Assembly: GCA_032358165.1 (NCBI GenBank)
Contig: JAALGY010000031.1
Span: 434,001 to 498,000 of the forward strand
Direction: 5' to 3'
DNA: 64,000 nt
Source of the DNA: Diplosphaera chodatii
Lineage: Eukaryota; Chlorophyta; Trebouxiophyceae; Prasiolales; Stichococcaceae
Both the position numbers and the translations under genes were made by a program. Of this stretch, positions 49,320 to 64,000 are shown in pieces (positions within the stretch are counted from its first letter, which is position 1; each line of letters begins with the position of its first letter). The notes below the pieces were generated by a model, which was not told where the DNA came from, ran no database searches, and saw only the letters and a program-made list of their open reading frames with translations.

Positions 49320-52300
49320 TCACAGCAGGCCCGCAAAGGGCGGCTGCGACGCGCTGCTGTTCGAGTCCCCAGACTGCCTGCCGCGCGCGCTGAAAGGCGA
49401 GGCCGCCTGCGTGGGGGCGCCGCCGCCGCCGCCGCTGCGGCGGGGGCTGAGCTGGCCGCGGGGCGCCGGCGGCGGGCGGCCGCTGCCCTCCCGGCTGCCC
49501 GCGGGCGCCGGCTGCAGGCGTGACGGCGACGCCGTCCCCCCGCTGCCGCCGCTGCGCGCCCCGAGCGACCGCGACGACCAGGGGCCGCCGGACGACGCCT
49601 GGCTGCCCGGCGAGTGCGCCGGGCGGGGCGGCGGGCCGGGCCGCGCTGGAGACGCGCTCTCCGTGTGCCTCTCGTCCAGCAGCGGGTCGGTGTCGGCCGT
49701 GGGCGACCGCTGCAGCGGCGTCGCGGGCTCCCCCAGGTCCAGCAGCTCGATGCCGGCCAGCACCTGCAGCGTGAGTGTCTGTTTGTTGGACAGGGGTACA
49801 CTCGAGGGTTCTGAGGTGACACGCATGGCCGGCTGGTTGCCAACATGGTATGTATTTGAACAAGAACCAGTCAGCAGTTGGGTACTCTGCCTGAGCGTCA
49901 GAGCCCAGCTGTTGGTCACTCACATCGTGCGAGGTGTCGATGTTCAGCACGACGTCGTCGGGCGCGCCCAGCTGCACGCCGGCGTGCACGGAAGGGTCGT
50001 CGTCGGCGTCGAGGCCCAGCTCCTCCAGCTTGGCGGGGCGGATGCTCCACATGTCGTCGATGGCGCGGCGGTACCCGGCGGCCGCGCGGTGGCCCAGCGG
50101 CTTGGCGGGGATGCCCGCCCAGACGCTGCCCTCCGACACCACCTCGCCCTGCAGGGGGAAGAGGTATACAGCTCCTGCATCAGTCTTCGGCCTGGGATGT
50201 CCTACCCGAAGGTCAACCGGCAGATGGTCCAGACAAGCAACAGCACACCGACCTCTGCTGCCACGTGAAACAGCAAGCAAGACACACAAGAGTGTTCTCA
50301 GCTGCAGGCCAGCAGCCACAGTGCCTGCCGACTCACCTTCATGACGAGGGACTGAGCAGTGACGATGGCGCCATCCTGAGCCGAGGAGCCCGGCAGCAGG
50401 TTGCACCACGGCTCCAATGTCACCTGGTTGCCGATCCTGCAGCAGCACAAGCAGGCACGTTGTTAGGTCACCAGGCGCCAGGTCGAACACCAACACCAAC
50501 ACACCCCCGGCACTGTCAGGCTGGCGGAAGTAAGCGACATACAAGGCGGTTTGCTTGCTGAGCAGGTGCGCACTCTGTCGGCACGAAGGTGGCGGCGAGG
50601 CGCTCCACGGTGTGGCCCTGCAGCACGACGCCCTCCGAGATGATGGTGCCCTCCCCAATGGTCAAAGCCATCGTTTCGACCCTGCGCACAGCCGGTGTGC
50701 CAGTTGTCCGTTGCACTCGCTGGCTTTTTTGCAGCAGCTGTGCTCATACCCGGCCATGCAGTTTCCAATGTTGATGATCTCCATTTGCAACTCATGCAGC
50801 CAATGCTGAGCAGAACCTTGTTGTAATTGTTGTAAGCACAGTTGCTGCATTCGGAACTAACTCCAGCTGGGTGTCACCAACATGGTGCAGAGGCTAAATG
50901 GGCATGCTGAGATTGCGCACCGGGAGCCACCGAAGATGCAGGAGCCGTGGCCGACGCGGGTGCCGATGGCGCGCAGGTGCCACAGCCCGAGGGACGAGCC
51001 CTCCAGCATCTGCAGCAGCCCGCCGCCCACCAGGCTGCTGATGGTCGTGGATATCTCCCACACCTGCGCAGCATACCGGTCAACCTCAGGCTCAGCGCCG
51101 CAGGCCCGACTGGTGTCTATATGCTGGCCTCTTGAAGGCCTCCTTGGCATACCAGATGAATAACAGCATGACAGGCATGAGGTGCGCACCATGAAGCGTG
51201 CGGAGTAGAAAGGAACGCTGCTCTTCAGGAAGTGCCCCAGCACCCGTGTGAAGACTGCCATGTATGCCACGTTCAGCACCTGCATGATACAACCCAGGGG
51301 TCATGCAGGCAATCACCGTAGTTTTATGGGTTTGTGAGTGGGCCCAGGCTGCAGACAGGGCACCGACACGATAGCACCATGGTGCATGCATGCTCTTGGC
51401 TCAGTTGTCGGCTTGACTCCGTGAAGGCTTCCTACCAGTGACACTGGGATGGCGATGACGAAGCCCACTATCGCGATGCCGGGGCCGCCCATGATCAGCA
51501 CGCACATGATGCCCAGCACCAGCGGCAGCAGCGTGAAGCAGGACGTGATCATGATCAGCACATAGCGCACGACCACCAGCGTGATCGAGTGCCTGCAGCG
51601 GTGCGCACGGGTGAAGGTCAGCAAGAGCACCAACATCCCCTGGATCTGGTGCACTGCAGAGCAGTACGCTTGCAGACCCTCTCCTGTGTGTCTGCCTGTT
51701 GCCTAATATGTTGCAAGGTGACATCACGCTCGGGGCACAAGACATCTACTACAGTACAACAGCATCCATGCTTGGCAGCTGCGGGCGCACCCCCAGCGCG
51801 TCCACCAAGTGCCAGCCAGCGCCAGCGGCACGTCCTCCATGCCGCCGGCGATCGGCGCCAGGCTGGCGGACCTGACGCTGCCGCTTGGACCGTGGCCGCT
51901 CACGCGGCTCTGGCCGCTGATGCGGCTGTAGCCGCTGAAGCGGGGGCTGCCCAGGCCGCTGGCCCTTGGGGTCCCCAGCGGCGTTGCGTGCCTGCCACAC
52001 GGTGCAGACCAAGTTGTCCTACAACTGCATTACACCACCAGGGGCTACAAATTCGCAAGGCGCTCGCACACAGCGTGGCCTGGTACCATGTCGAAAGTCT
52101 GGCGTGTGCGCACACCTCTCGTAGACTGCCAGGGGCCCATCCAACCCGCTGGCCCGGCGCATGCTGGACCATGTGGAGCCGCCAACAGCATAGCTGTGCG
52201 TGGACGACTGGCGGCTGAGCCCCGAATTCCGCTTGTATGCGTCCAAGGGACTCTTCTCGGGGCTCTTCATGCCGGTGTACCTGTATGCCATGGTAGCCAT

Positions 52301-62800: not shown

Positions 62801-64000
62801 CGACACCGGGTCCAGCACATAGTGGCGCATGTTGGTGAAGGGCCTGCAACGTGCCACAGCTCATTGTGTCATTCCCATGCAACAGGACAGCAGCGCAATG
62901 CAAAGCATGTCATCGAAGGATCTGTTATAACAGCTGCACAGTCACAAGGACTGATGTACCGTCTGCACAATTCTTACCTGCCAATCGGCACTGAGACTGC
63001 ATCCCCGTAGTCGTTGCACAGGAAGGAGGTGGTGATGACGCTGGCCTCTGTTGGCCCGTATGCATCATGCAGCTCGGCACAAGGTGCCGCCTGCCGCATG
63101 GCCGCCACAGCCGCCGGGCGCACTGCCTCACCGCCGTAGTTCACATGCCGCAGGCTGGTCAGCATGCCACGGTCGCGGCACACCTCCAGCAGCGCCTGTC
63201 AGCACCAGGAACGCTGCATGAGACACTGCGCATTGGAGTGTGTGGCTGCGTCACTCATAGCAGGGTCTGTAGCACAATTTTGCTCCGTTCACCTGGCACA
63301 TAGACGGCACGATACTGATGGACGCGATGTAGTGCTGCTGCACGAGCGCAGCGACACGCTCCACATTCTTCATTTCCTCTGCTGGCGACACCACCACCGA
63401 GCAGCCCATGGCCAGGGGGGACCAGAAGTCCAGCACGCTGAGGTCGAAGTTGACGGCCATCCACTGCAGCACCTTGTCGCCGGGGCGCACGCCCGCGTTG
63501 CGCAGCACGCTGGTTTCGTACGCAATGACATTGGCCACACCTGCGGGCAGCACCACCATCTGTCATAGTTGCTGCAAGCTGGTTGAGGCGCGTTGAGCAT
63601 CAGCAGACAGTAGAATTTAGCATCTCATGCAGTTACTTACAGCACAGTCAGCATGCTGACGCACCTGCATGCTCCACGGGGATGCCCTTCGGCTCGCCCG
63701 TCGAGCCGGAGGTGAACATGATGGTGTACAGGTCGTTGGGCCGGCTGCGTGGCTGCAGGCTGTCGGCTGGCAGGCTGCTGAACTGCTGCCACAGGCTGTC
63801 AGCAACCAGCACCTGAATGCCAGCGGGCAGCTGCTCTGCGGCGGGTGCAGTGCCAGCCTGTGTGACCAGCAGGCGGGCGCCGCACTGCTGCAGGATGTTG
63901 ACGACTCGCTTGGAGGGCGCGGTGTGGTCGATAGGCACATAGCAGCCGCCGGCCTTGAGGATCGCAACAAGCGCGATGTAGACCTCGAAGCACTTGTCCA
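49320..64000 (-). CDS. Non-ribosomal peptide synthetase with membrane/beta-helix terminal domain (5' end outside window)
   Basis: Giant multi-exon gene read right to left, entering the window inside an adenylation domain. Order: A1 (partial) 64000-62200, T1 about 62095-61860, C about 61740-59690, A2 about 59660-57450, T2 about 57330-56940, then a terminal region to the stop at 49320-49322. Core motifs are intact: FTSGSTGEPKG and YGPTEAS in A1, LGGNSL in T1, HHAITDG in C, FTSGSTGQPKG and YRTGD in A2, FFE|IGGNSL in T2. The terminal region alternates hydrophobic helices with hexapeptide-repeat cassettes. There is no thioesterase or reductase. Domain names are sure; most exon borders were not closed. 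The last exon is 49320-49763, and the one before starts at 49924 (IDTSHD|VLAGIELLDLGEP). The high intron count argues against bacterial contamination. Product and substrates are unknown. Confidence 0.93.
52676..52891 (-). repeat. Nine-copy octapeptide repeat (RAGSGNMY) in the NRPS
   Basis: Nine contiguous 24-bp units on the minus strand encode variants of RAGSGNMY (RAGSGNMY twice, NVGSGNTY, QGGSGNAY, RPGGSNLY, RAGSGNMP, RSGSGNLN, QAGSGNMY, RANSGSVH). They sit in a Ser/Gly/Arg-rich exon between the second and third hexapeptide cassettes. The units keep perfect 24-bp spacing, pointing to tandem duplication. Function unknown; probably a flexible linker. Confidence 0.9.
56940..57330 (-). other. 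NRPS carrier (thiolation) domain T2
   Basis: Carrier split by an intron just before the active site: VIQAAWEEVLAVEPG then MSFFE joins IGGNSLKAGIALSKVRQML. The attachment Ser codon is at 57012-57014 (minus). It is the last carrier and feeds directly into the membrane region. Confidence 0.9.
57450..59660 (-). other. NRPS adenylation domain A2
   Basis: Second activating domain: LKAGGYYVPLD-type motif (MKAGGYYVPLDPELPAERA), FTSGSTGQPK at 59122-59152, MPFIFDGSIMDIWLPLSMGC (about 58860-58920), NCYG|GPTEASV split by an intron (about 58500 and 58360), GELFASGVCVARGY, MYRTGD (about 58095), GRADAQVKLRGFRLELGEIE and LPAYMVP with LPRLPNGK (about 57455-57475). At least seven exons. All core motifs are present. 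Confidence 0.93.
59690..61740 (-). other. NRPS condensation domain
   Basis: Peptide-bond-forming domain spread over several exons. It opens with VVPTPLSFQQ and EQFLQLWQQDPASAAYN. The active-site motif HHAITDG is intact at 60908-60928. It continues with AYIDYAAWQRE, IVVGTPYANRD and NVPFAQVVDSLGI, all typical late C-domain motifs, and ends before the LTLSQLDIMDQQER linker. I did not try to assign an LCL or DCL subtype; no epimerase domain is visible beside it. Confidence 0.9.
61860..62095 (-). other. NRPS carrier (thiolation) domain T1
   Basis: Phosphopantetheine carrier of the first visible module: YVAPSNHVEAAVCSAWQEIL leads to FFELGGNSLS, with the attachment Ser codon at 61926-61928 (minus). 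It follows A1 and precedes the condensation domain, the standard module order. Confidence 0.93.
62200..64000 (-). other. NRPS adenylation domain A1 (5' part missing)
   Basis: Amino-acid-activating domain. It enters at LKAGGCYVPID, followed by FTSGSTGEPKGI (about 63690-63720), NFDLSVLDFWSPLAMGC (about 63400-63460), HDAYGPTEASV (about 63035-63070), GELFISGPGVARGY (about 62740-62780), MYRTGD (about 62640), GRKDGQVQLRGFRVELGEIE (about 62410-62475) and LPRYMVP then LPRLPNGK (lysine near 62200). Motif A1 and the start lie beyond the window. Introns fall at about 63570-63660 and at several other points. Motifs are intact, so it should be active. Confidence 0.93.

Follow-up and report, generated by a model that had tools for sequence, protein, structure and literature searches.

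What kind of peptide synthetase ends in the stretch of Diplosphaera chodatii DNA analysed here (the window; 64,000 nucleotides at positions 434,001 to 498,000 of contig JAALGY010000031.1, GC content 62.5%), how far does its gene reach and what might it make? Our reading is that the whole locus is probably one 86.4-kb gene encoding a 17-module NRPS of the order A-T-(C-A-T)x16 that ends in a membrane terminus of the Pls/PosA type. Its predicted product is a peptide of 17 residues in defined order, likely released at the membrane onto an amine or hydroxyl group.

A Pfam scan of single open reading frames matched AMP-binding, AMP-binding_C, PP-binding and Condensation on the minus strand at 49307-64000, and a genome profile search placed Condensation (PF00668) at 16 sites on the same contig (C25) with a spacing of about 4.7 kb. 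Spliced profile alignment of C25 follows an uninterrupted path through 17 modules, comprising 18,147 aa and 206 introns without a stop. The alignment score is 228,758 for the gene strand, against 0 for its opposite and for either strand of window positions 1-48000, so the match is not due to chance. Together with a two-copy comparison it defines a gene at C25:483307-569688 on the minus strand, running from a predicted ATG at C25:569688, found by following the gene past base 64000, to a stop near window position 49307. The predicted spliced product has 232 exons, 231 introns, 19,500 aa and a mass of 2.08 MDa, in the domain order given above. A first-pass annotation of the window had described an NRPS of intron-rich eukaryotic structure with two A, two T and one C domain and no thioesterase. 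The spliced model and both copies bear out that structure, and the domain count holds inside the window, where the first A domain is missing its 5' part, located past base 64000. The gene has 17 modules rather than two; 71.7 kb lie beyond the window, which holds 17% of it (Table 1).

The splice model was computed from the sequence. Alignments of the terminus with the bacterial profile were poor, and this part was instead fitted on the two-copy comparison. The 5' start was set by reading the two-copy alignment and is a judgement call. Least certain in the model are the final two exons, for which several ends score closely; the best model stops at 49307-49309, while 49320, previously taken as the border, corresponds to a stop when the last exon is read differently.

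Table 1 Features of the NRPS gene inside the window.
Feature	Position	Strand	Evidence and remarks
3' part of giant NRPS gene	49307..64000	-	44 exons in full and one in part; spliced profile alignment, two-copy comparison
A domain module 16, 3' part (5' part past window)	62199..64000	-	AMP-binding_C in ORF 62112-62717; TSGSTG motif near 63713; code DLLSVYAVIK
T domain module 16, GGNSL	61818..62012	-	PF00550, 47.1 and 45.7 bits in two scans
C domain module 17, HHAITDG near 60929	59646..61796	-	PF00668; spliced model
A domain module 17, code DGMMLLCVMK	57290..59579 (3' border approximate)	-	PF00501, 123 bits on one exon; spliced model
T domain module 17, FFEIGGNSL near 57023, across three exons	56780..57289 (borders approximate)	-	Spliced model
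Pls/PosA-type membrane terminus	49924..56770	-	TIGR02353 match; hydropathy; exons keep their frame in both copies
Hydrophobic helix pair 1 of terminus	56398..56683	-	Hydropathy
Hexapeptide block 1	55538..56098	-	TIGR02353 582-625 on ORF 55919-56926; spliced scan
Hydrophobic helix pair 2	54902..55293	-	Hydropathy
Hexapeptide block 2	53946..54472	-	TIGR02353 99-146 on ORF 54119-54550; spliced scan
Low-complexity Ser/Gly/Arg-rich insert of ~370 residues, block 2 to helix pair 3	51802..53709	-	Spliced model; in frame in both copies
Hydrophobic helix pair 3	51265..51576	-	Helix 6 by hydropathy; helix 5 placed by eye
Hexapeptide block 3	50092..50985	-	Weak hits to hexapeptide acyltransferase models at residues 1033-1141
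C-terminal tail, last two exons, exact end uncertain	49307..49763	-	Best of several close-scoring ends

A second, diverged copy with the same 17 modules lies on contigs C20 and C11, broken once by the contig border, with 13 and 3 Condensation domains, respectively. Aligned separately with the profile of the first copy, it contains 164 + 42 = 206 module introns and no stops. Intron phase agrees in 205 of these 206, and exon length is equal in 198 of 204 pairs. Four of the six unequal pairs differ by a multiple of 3, and the other two, which adjoin each other (+11, -20), reflect a difference between the copies in the chosen splice site. Identity between the modules of the copies is 0.948/0.969/0.805 by codon position versus 0.661 in the introns, and dN/dS spans 0.041-0.173 in 18 module comparisons. 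Values of 0.04-0.17 by module imply that the gene is maintained by purifying selection. The two-copy comparison also revealed that the second copy lacks a stop at the stop position of the first. Frameshifts, named beforehand as evidence against the gene, do not appear: the module exons are in frame without a stop, and 26/26 exon pairs of the terminus are in frame between copies. A pseudogene is thus ruled out by dN/dS and by the in-frame exons of both copies. Bacterial contamination is excluded by the 231 computed introns and the conserved phase in the second copy, and also by the photosynthetic-eukaryote character of the assembly, which carries the RuBisCO small subunit on the large contigs C32 and C21.

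The catalytic motifs are well conserved. All 16 C domains have the active-site HHxxTD, followed by Gly in 13 (those of modules 4, 6 and 8 lack it). The A3 motif TSGSTGxPKG occurs in 17/17 A domains and YGPTE in 16/17, module 8 having YGPSE. Asp235 and Lys517, as expected for an alpha-amino acid, are found in every A domain. The phosphopantetheine-serine motif GG[NT]SL is present in all 17 T domains. For the transferase acting on this serine, the genome offers two candidate PF01648 matches, on C47 and C15, both partial, single-exon and above cut-off; the search found no match for MbtH. By sequence, then, the enzyme shows the marks of a modular linear NRPS: C motif, A core motifs, T serine and a PPTase in the genome. 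Neither of the immediate neighbours (genes for an acetolactate synthase small subunit and a methyltransferase-like protein) is a tailoring gene for such an assembly line, which counts against it, as do the missing MbtH match and the three C domains without the Gly.

Introns also record how the modules arose. Of the 206 module introns, 193 sit at 18 positions common to at least four modules. All 17 A domains fall into a single clade in a quick tree (support 100), and a careful tree with ten of them gives 100/100; the 16 C domains likewise form a clade of their own (support 99, quick tree). Since the modules are monophyletic and share intron positions, the introns entered an ancestral module before it multiplied. 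The history we suggest starts from a C-A-T module of bacterial type, which acquired its introns within the algal lineage; tandem multiplication of this module followed. Among 120 listed of 7882 protein-search hits, the relatives of the modules are bacterial NRPSs where named, with 34-42% identity, and transfer from a bacterium is likely. The earlier proposal of a transferred bacterial gene later filled with introns is therefore too simple, the introns being older than the multiplication. No fungal name occurs among the same 120 hits, although many hits are nameless, and we rejected a fungal origin; a viral carrier was likewise rejected, as none of 105 pattern matches in viral contigs was confirmed as a relative. 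The algal A clade adjoins the Pls/PosA clade with 89/80 in the careful tree, which is unrooted and has a long algal branch, and the algal-plus-Pls split has support 94 in a quick, likewise unrooted tree of 114 rows. Alternative nesting of the algal A domains with ten NRPS rows gave AU p 0.063 and was not rejected, so Pls/PosA and NRPS domains are both candidate sister groups.

The 17 computed A pockets fall into seven code types, in the order a-d-b-a-b-a-b-e-z-g-a-a-h-b-a-g-a from module 1 to 17. Pocket codes are the same in 13/17 modules between the copies, with 5/170 positions differing. Glu at code position 239, the acidic residue expected of Pls/PosA diamino-acid pockets, occurs in 0/17 algal A domains versus 13/13 sampled Pls/PosA-type A domains (some of these controls are fungal). 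This makes a cationic poly-amino acid unlikely and weakens the earlier poly-amino-acid idea. Most likely, the product is a defined 17-residue, mostly neutral peptide released at the membrane by the Pls-type terminus. In the mechanism we propose, a phosphopantetheinyl transferase would arm the 17 T domains, A1, with no preceding C domain, would load the first residue to give a peptide with a free amine start, and the 16 C domains would add one residue each. The module lengths appear to leave no space for epimerisation or methylation domains, so the peptide should consist of L residues, barring additional activities of the C domains. By analogy with Pls and PosA, the 17-mer on T17 would pass to the three-lobed terminus, which would likely set it free at the membrane, with an amine or hydroxyl group as acceptor. 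Such a product should be findable, given the fixed order of the modules and the conservation of their pocket codes between copies.

The proposed release chemistry rests on likeness to single-module enzymes making diamino-acid homopolymers, whose type of A domain is absent here. The spliced terminus matches TIGR02353 (695 model positions) in three stretches with E 1.1e-52 and 179.4 bits, below the curated cut-off of 423.1 bits; it is homologous and not a member by the curated rule. From hydropathy and the TIGR02353 stretches, it has three hexapeptide blocks of the left-handed beta-helix type and six hydrophobic helices arranged as three pairs, in agreement with the first-pass description of a Pls-like end. 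The low score, the long insert and the lack of any visible thioesterase in the predicted chain would all suit a terminus that merely serves as membrane anchor or scaffold, the peptide being released by a separate thioesterase or hydrolase. We regard this as a minor possibility, as the terminal exons have kept their frame in both copies at codon-position identities of 0.936/0.962/0.806 and the adjoining module 17 is the most constrained of all (dN/dS 0.041). Alternatively, the terminus may polymerise, joining 17-residue blocks head to tail as Pls joins lysines. Its homologs do form amide bonds to amines, as described in parts of PMC10522769, and module 1, lacking a C domain, should leave a free amine; Pls and PosA, however, use single diamino acids via side-chain amines, and none of the 17 pockets is of that type, making this unlikely. 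We consider it quite unlikely that units with a free N-terminus are strung by the terminus into a long repeating, membrane- or wall-bound polymer of defined sequence.

Very long eukaryotic transcripts are rare, and the locus might instead be a tandem array of shorter NRPS genes with separate transcripts. This is very improbable: the longest intron in the whole gene model is 239 bp, therefore leaving no room for gene borders between modules, and a single path crosses the module junctions in both copies, apart from the one contig border. Moreover, a C domain is missing from module 1 alone, and no module other than 17 precedes a terminus. A strict polyamino-acid synthetase (CHPA type) making a cationic homopolymer, to which the kind of terminus and the touching A clades point, has practically no chance given 17 modules, seven differing pocket codes and the missing Glu239. 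The preferred reading is thus one gene, one chain and one 17-residue peptide released at the membrane.

If the model holds, a cell of the green lineage grew and kept a 2-MDa peptide assembly line in two diverged copies, against the general view that algal NRPSs are few and small (PMC4661987). The shared intron positions are a record of its module-by-module multiplication. Such genes may escape notice: with the coding sequence cut into exons of a few hundred bases, 18,000 residues stay invisible to searches that ignore introns. In the titles and abstract starts of the open PMC literature, we found no multimodular NRPS of such size in a green alga and no Pls-type terminus on a multimodular NRPS; the combination of a long C-A-T line with a poly-amino-acid-synthetase membrane terminus is not reported in the literature searched.

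Like the algal enzyme, the epsilon-poly-L-lysine and delta-poly-L-ornithine synthetases Pls and PosA carry three helix pairs and three left-handed beta-helix blocks C-terminal to the T domain, according to passages of PMC10522769. They are A-T-terminus enzymes activating one diamino acid, whereas the algal enzyme has 17 modules with 16 C domains, seven pocket types and no Glu239. Five of the six annotated genes compared encode 1,327-1,368 aa and the sixth 911 aa. The ~370-residue insert and the sub-cut-off TIGR02353 score set the algal terminus apart from theirs. A terminus of the same kind also follows an NRPS module in P0251 and P0261, C-A-T-TIGR02353-carboxylesterase proteins on long ENA contigs; the carboxylesterase domain is absent from the algal enzyme. 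Their A domains and that of P0252, a transcript with the A-T part from a eukaryotic transcriptome set, group with a Legionella NRPS apart from the algal clade (99/98) and lack Asp235. The joining of module and terminus in these three thus appears to be of separate origin from the algal gene.

Known algal NRPSs are likewise eukaryotic and built of C-A-T modules. The available part of a 2015 survey of 32 algae (PMC4661987) counts 11 C domains over six proteins, Symbiodinium not included, with one C domain each in Chlorella variabilis and Coccomyxa; the largest protein, from Bigelowiella natans, has 10 domains and 490 kDa, about a quarter of the size predicted here. A 2020 survey (PMC7073580) lists one NRPS cluster for C. 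variabilis and two for Parachlorella kessleri. The algal assembly line is not the longest known. Parts of PMC11610996 give 18 modules and a gene of ~62.8 kb for the peptaibol synthetase Tex1, and a title in the reference list of PMC10676414 gives a 15-residue product for the kolossin A synthetase. Both resemble the algal enzyme in having one chain, one residue per module and a comparable number of modules. Unlike Tex1, the algal enzyme has no PKS start module, and in contrast to both of these large fungal and bacterial NRPSs, its gene combines 231 predicted introns and a Pls-type terminus with a photosynthetic host.

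The NRPS gene reaches far beyond the window. Within the window (C25:434001-498000), single open reading frames on the minus strand matched AMP-binding, AMP-binding_C, PP-binding and Condensation as well as pieces of TIGR02353, bearing out the first-pass annotation's count of two A, two T and one C domain. Followed past position 64000 to its start, the gene proved much larger than the part that annotation had described, only 17% of it lying inside the window. Searching the assembly (85.6 Mb, 55 contigs) with PF00668 gave 82 exon-level matches, confined to C25, the contig of the window, and to C20 and C11, which carry a diverged second copy. 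They represent 16, 13 and 3 C domains, respectively, those of C25 lying at 494 to 565 kb with ~4.7 kb spacing. For spliced alignment we wrote a program that uses a circular C-A-T profile and admits GT/GC-AG introns in any of the three phases. Starting from a profile of five bacterial modules, it traced a single path across the whole C25 region. Three rounds of refinement, using modules of the gene itself and learned splice signals, gave a path that encodes 18,147 aa with 206 introns and zero stops. With the bacterial profile the gene strand scored 228,758; the opposite strand and both strands of window 1-48000 scored 0. For the terminus, the model was derived from a comparison of both genomic copies (26 exons once one zero-length artefact was removed). 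The gene start was chosen by reading the alignment, at an ATG that is conserved and preceded by an in-frame stop. The extent thus computed is 86,382 bp in 232 exons, the last two of them uncertain, with 231 introns of 86-239 bp (median 115; 220 GT and 11 GC donors, all acceptors AG). Its predicted product of 19,500 aa and 2,082 kDa is presumably expressed as one polypeptide.

Location of the NRPS gene, its neighbours and other assembly-line genes (positions without contig prefix are window positions)
Feature	Location	Strand	Remark
Whole NRPS gene model	C25:569688-483307	-	
Refined module path	C25:569460-490762	-	
Module 5	C25:552266-547347	-	
Module 7	C25:542908-537968	-	
Insert in terminus	51802-53709	-	Ser/Gly/Arg-rich
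Acetolactate synthase small subunit (ACT + ALS_ss_C)	45389-48023	+	3' neighbour, convergent (tail to tail)
SAM methyltransferase-like gene			5' neighbour
Conserved exons, presumably ABCE1/RLI-like (ABC ATPase)	40113-41879	+	from two-copy comparison
Ketosynthase exons, ~85 kb	C9:1033255-1118365; C31:685972-769682		two copies, carrier exons among them
Ketosynthase exons, ~57 kb	C21:134293-191351; C35:3313385-3371593		two copies, carrier exons among them
Carrier matches	C9:1311231; C17:1926299		partner not seen

Computation also establishes the domain order, A-T-(C-A-T)x16-terminus, and the integrity of the motifs. HHxxTD is present in 16/16 C domains, followed by Gly in all but modules 4, 6 and 8 (13 domains), TSGSTGxPKG in 17/17 A domains and the serine motif in 17/17 T domains; YGPTE occurs in 16 A domains and reads YGPSE in module 8. 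Elongation modules measure 1,085-1,106 aa, leaving no space for E or methyltransferase domains. Such an assembly line would make a 17-residue peptide beginning with a free amine, its residues would remain L, and the terminus would release it to an amine or hydroxyl at the membrane. A genome search gave two partial PPTase matches, on C47 and C15, and no match to MbtH.

The A-domain pockets, read as ten-position codes with anchors on module 17, fall into recurring types: DGMMLLCVMK (type a) in modules 4, 6, 11, 12, 15, 17 and, with one change, 1; DVLSVVIVCK (b) in modules 3, 5, 7 and 14; and DLLSVYAVIK (g) in modules 10 and 16. Modules 2, 8, 9 and 13 have single types. The pockets appear neutral to hydrophobic, and their codes are the same in both copies for 13/17 modules (5/170 positions differ).

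The second copy lies on C20 (plus strand), where it reaches the contig end at 293146, and resumes at base 1 of C11. These ends align to C25:507134 and C25:507132, so the break is a contig border inside module 14. A separate run with the copy-1 profile found 164 introns on C20 and 42 on C11, again 206 and without a stop, 205/206 sharing their phase. Among 204 exon pairs compared (207 minus the first, last and break-bearing exon), 198 had the same length and four differed by a multiple of 3; one adjacent pair, off by +11 and -20, reflects splice sites picked differently in the two runs. Module identity at codon positions 1/2/3 was 0.948/0.969/0.805 against 0.661 in introns, and Nei-Gojobori dN/dS was 0.041-0.173 (dS 0.24-0.37; 18 comparisons, module 14 being taken as two pieces). 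Since the two copies diverged, the modules of the gene have therefore been under constraint. All 26 terminus exons are in frame between copies, the projected second copy lacks stops and identity is 0.936/0.962/0.806 against 0.617 in terminus introns, figures biased towards the model since it was fitted on this comparison. Inside each copy, modules 5 and 7 share 93-94% identity; as their dS is lower within (0.16-0.19) than between copies (0.33-0.37), this fits exchange, apparently gene conversion, between these alternate modules in each lineage.

Most other matches are paired as well. The NRPS (dS ~0.3 apart), PPTase, RuBisCO small subunit and most PKS/carrier matches have copies on different contigs (C25 with C20+C11, C47/C15, C32/C21, C9/C31, C21/C35), so the assembly resembles two subgenomes of ~43 Mb each, from a hybrid or very diverged diploid. 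The two RuBisCO small subunit matches, on the large contigs C32 and C21, agree with a green alga. Each subgenome probably holds a pair of giant type I PKS genes that are rich in introns.

Phylogeny groups the modules together. The 17 A domains are monophyletic against 97 others (SH-aLRT 100, quick tree), as are ten of them in a careful tree that includes 52 others (100/100); the 16 C domains likewise form a single group against 60 others (99, quick tree, with two very long-branched outside rows). Together with 193/206 module introns at 18 profile positions common to at least four modules, this indicates that a module already carrying introns was multiplied. Among the best 120 of 7882 matches of a module query against 5.8 billion proteins, those named were bacterial NRPSs (34-42% identity). 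As to the donor, the tree sets the algal A-domain clade between the domains of NRPSs and those of Pls/PosA (89/80); a topology that nests it with ten NRPS rows was not rejected (AU p 0.063).

Homology of the terminus is likewise computed: spliced, it matched TIGR02353 in three stretches (E 1.1e-52, 179.4 bits, below the curated cut-off of 423.1). Searched inside a 2,259-residue query, it matched 281 proteins; most of the 120 listed combine A and terminus domains in ~1,250-1,470 aa, and a few are named as fungal. Three matches are apparently eukaryotic NRPS-module-TIGR02353-carboxylesterase proteins: P0251 and P0261 (C-A-T-terminus plus carboxylesterase domain) and P0252, a transcript related to them. 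In the tree their A domains fall apart from the algal clade, and they lack Asp235 (code GIWTVC..), which indicates that NRPS modules were joined to a Pls-type terminus more than once, these three representing a second, unrelated joining. Position 239 is Glu in 13/13 sampled Pls/PosA-type A domains (bacterial, fungal and some without a name), in none of the ten other control rows, and Met or Leu in the 17 algal domains; judged from these residues, the assembly line would not be made to take up diamino acids as Pls does. Hydropathy of the algal terminus shows paired helices, the fifth positioned by eye. Its Ser/Gly/Arg-rich insert has SGNMYRAGSGN-like repeat units and is in frame in both copies. 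Compared with the PosA terminus, for which the published model has three left-handed beta-helices along with six helices (PMC10522769), the algal terminus has ~370 additional low-complexity residues preceding helix pair 3.
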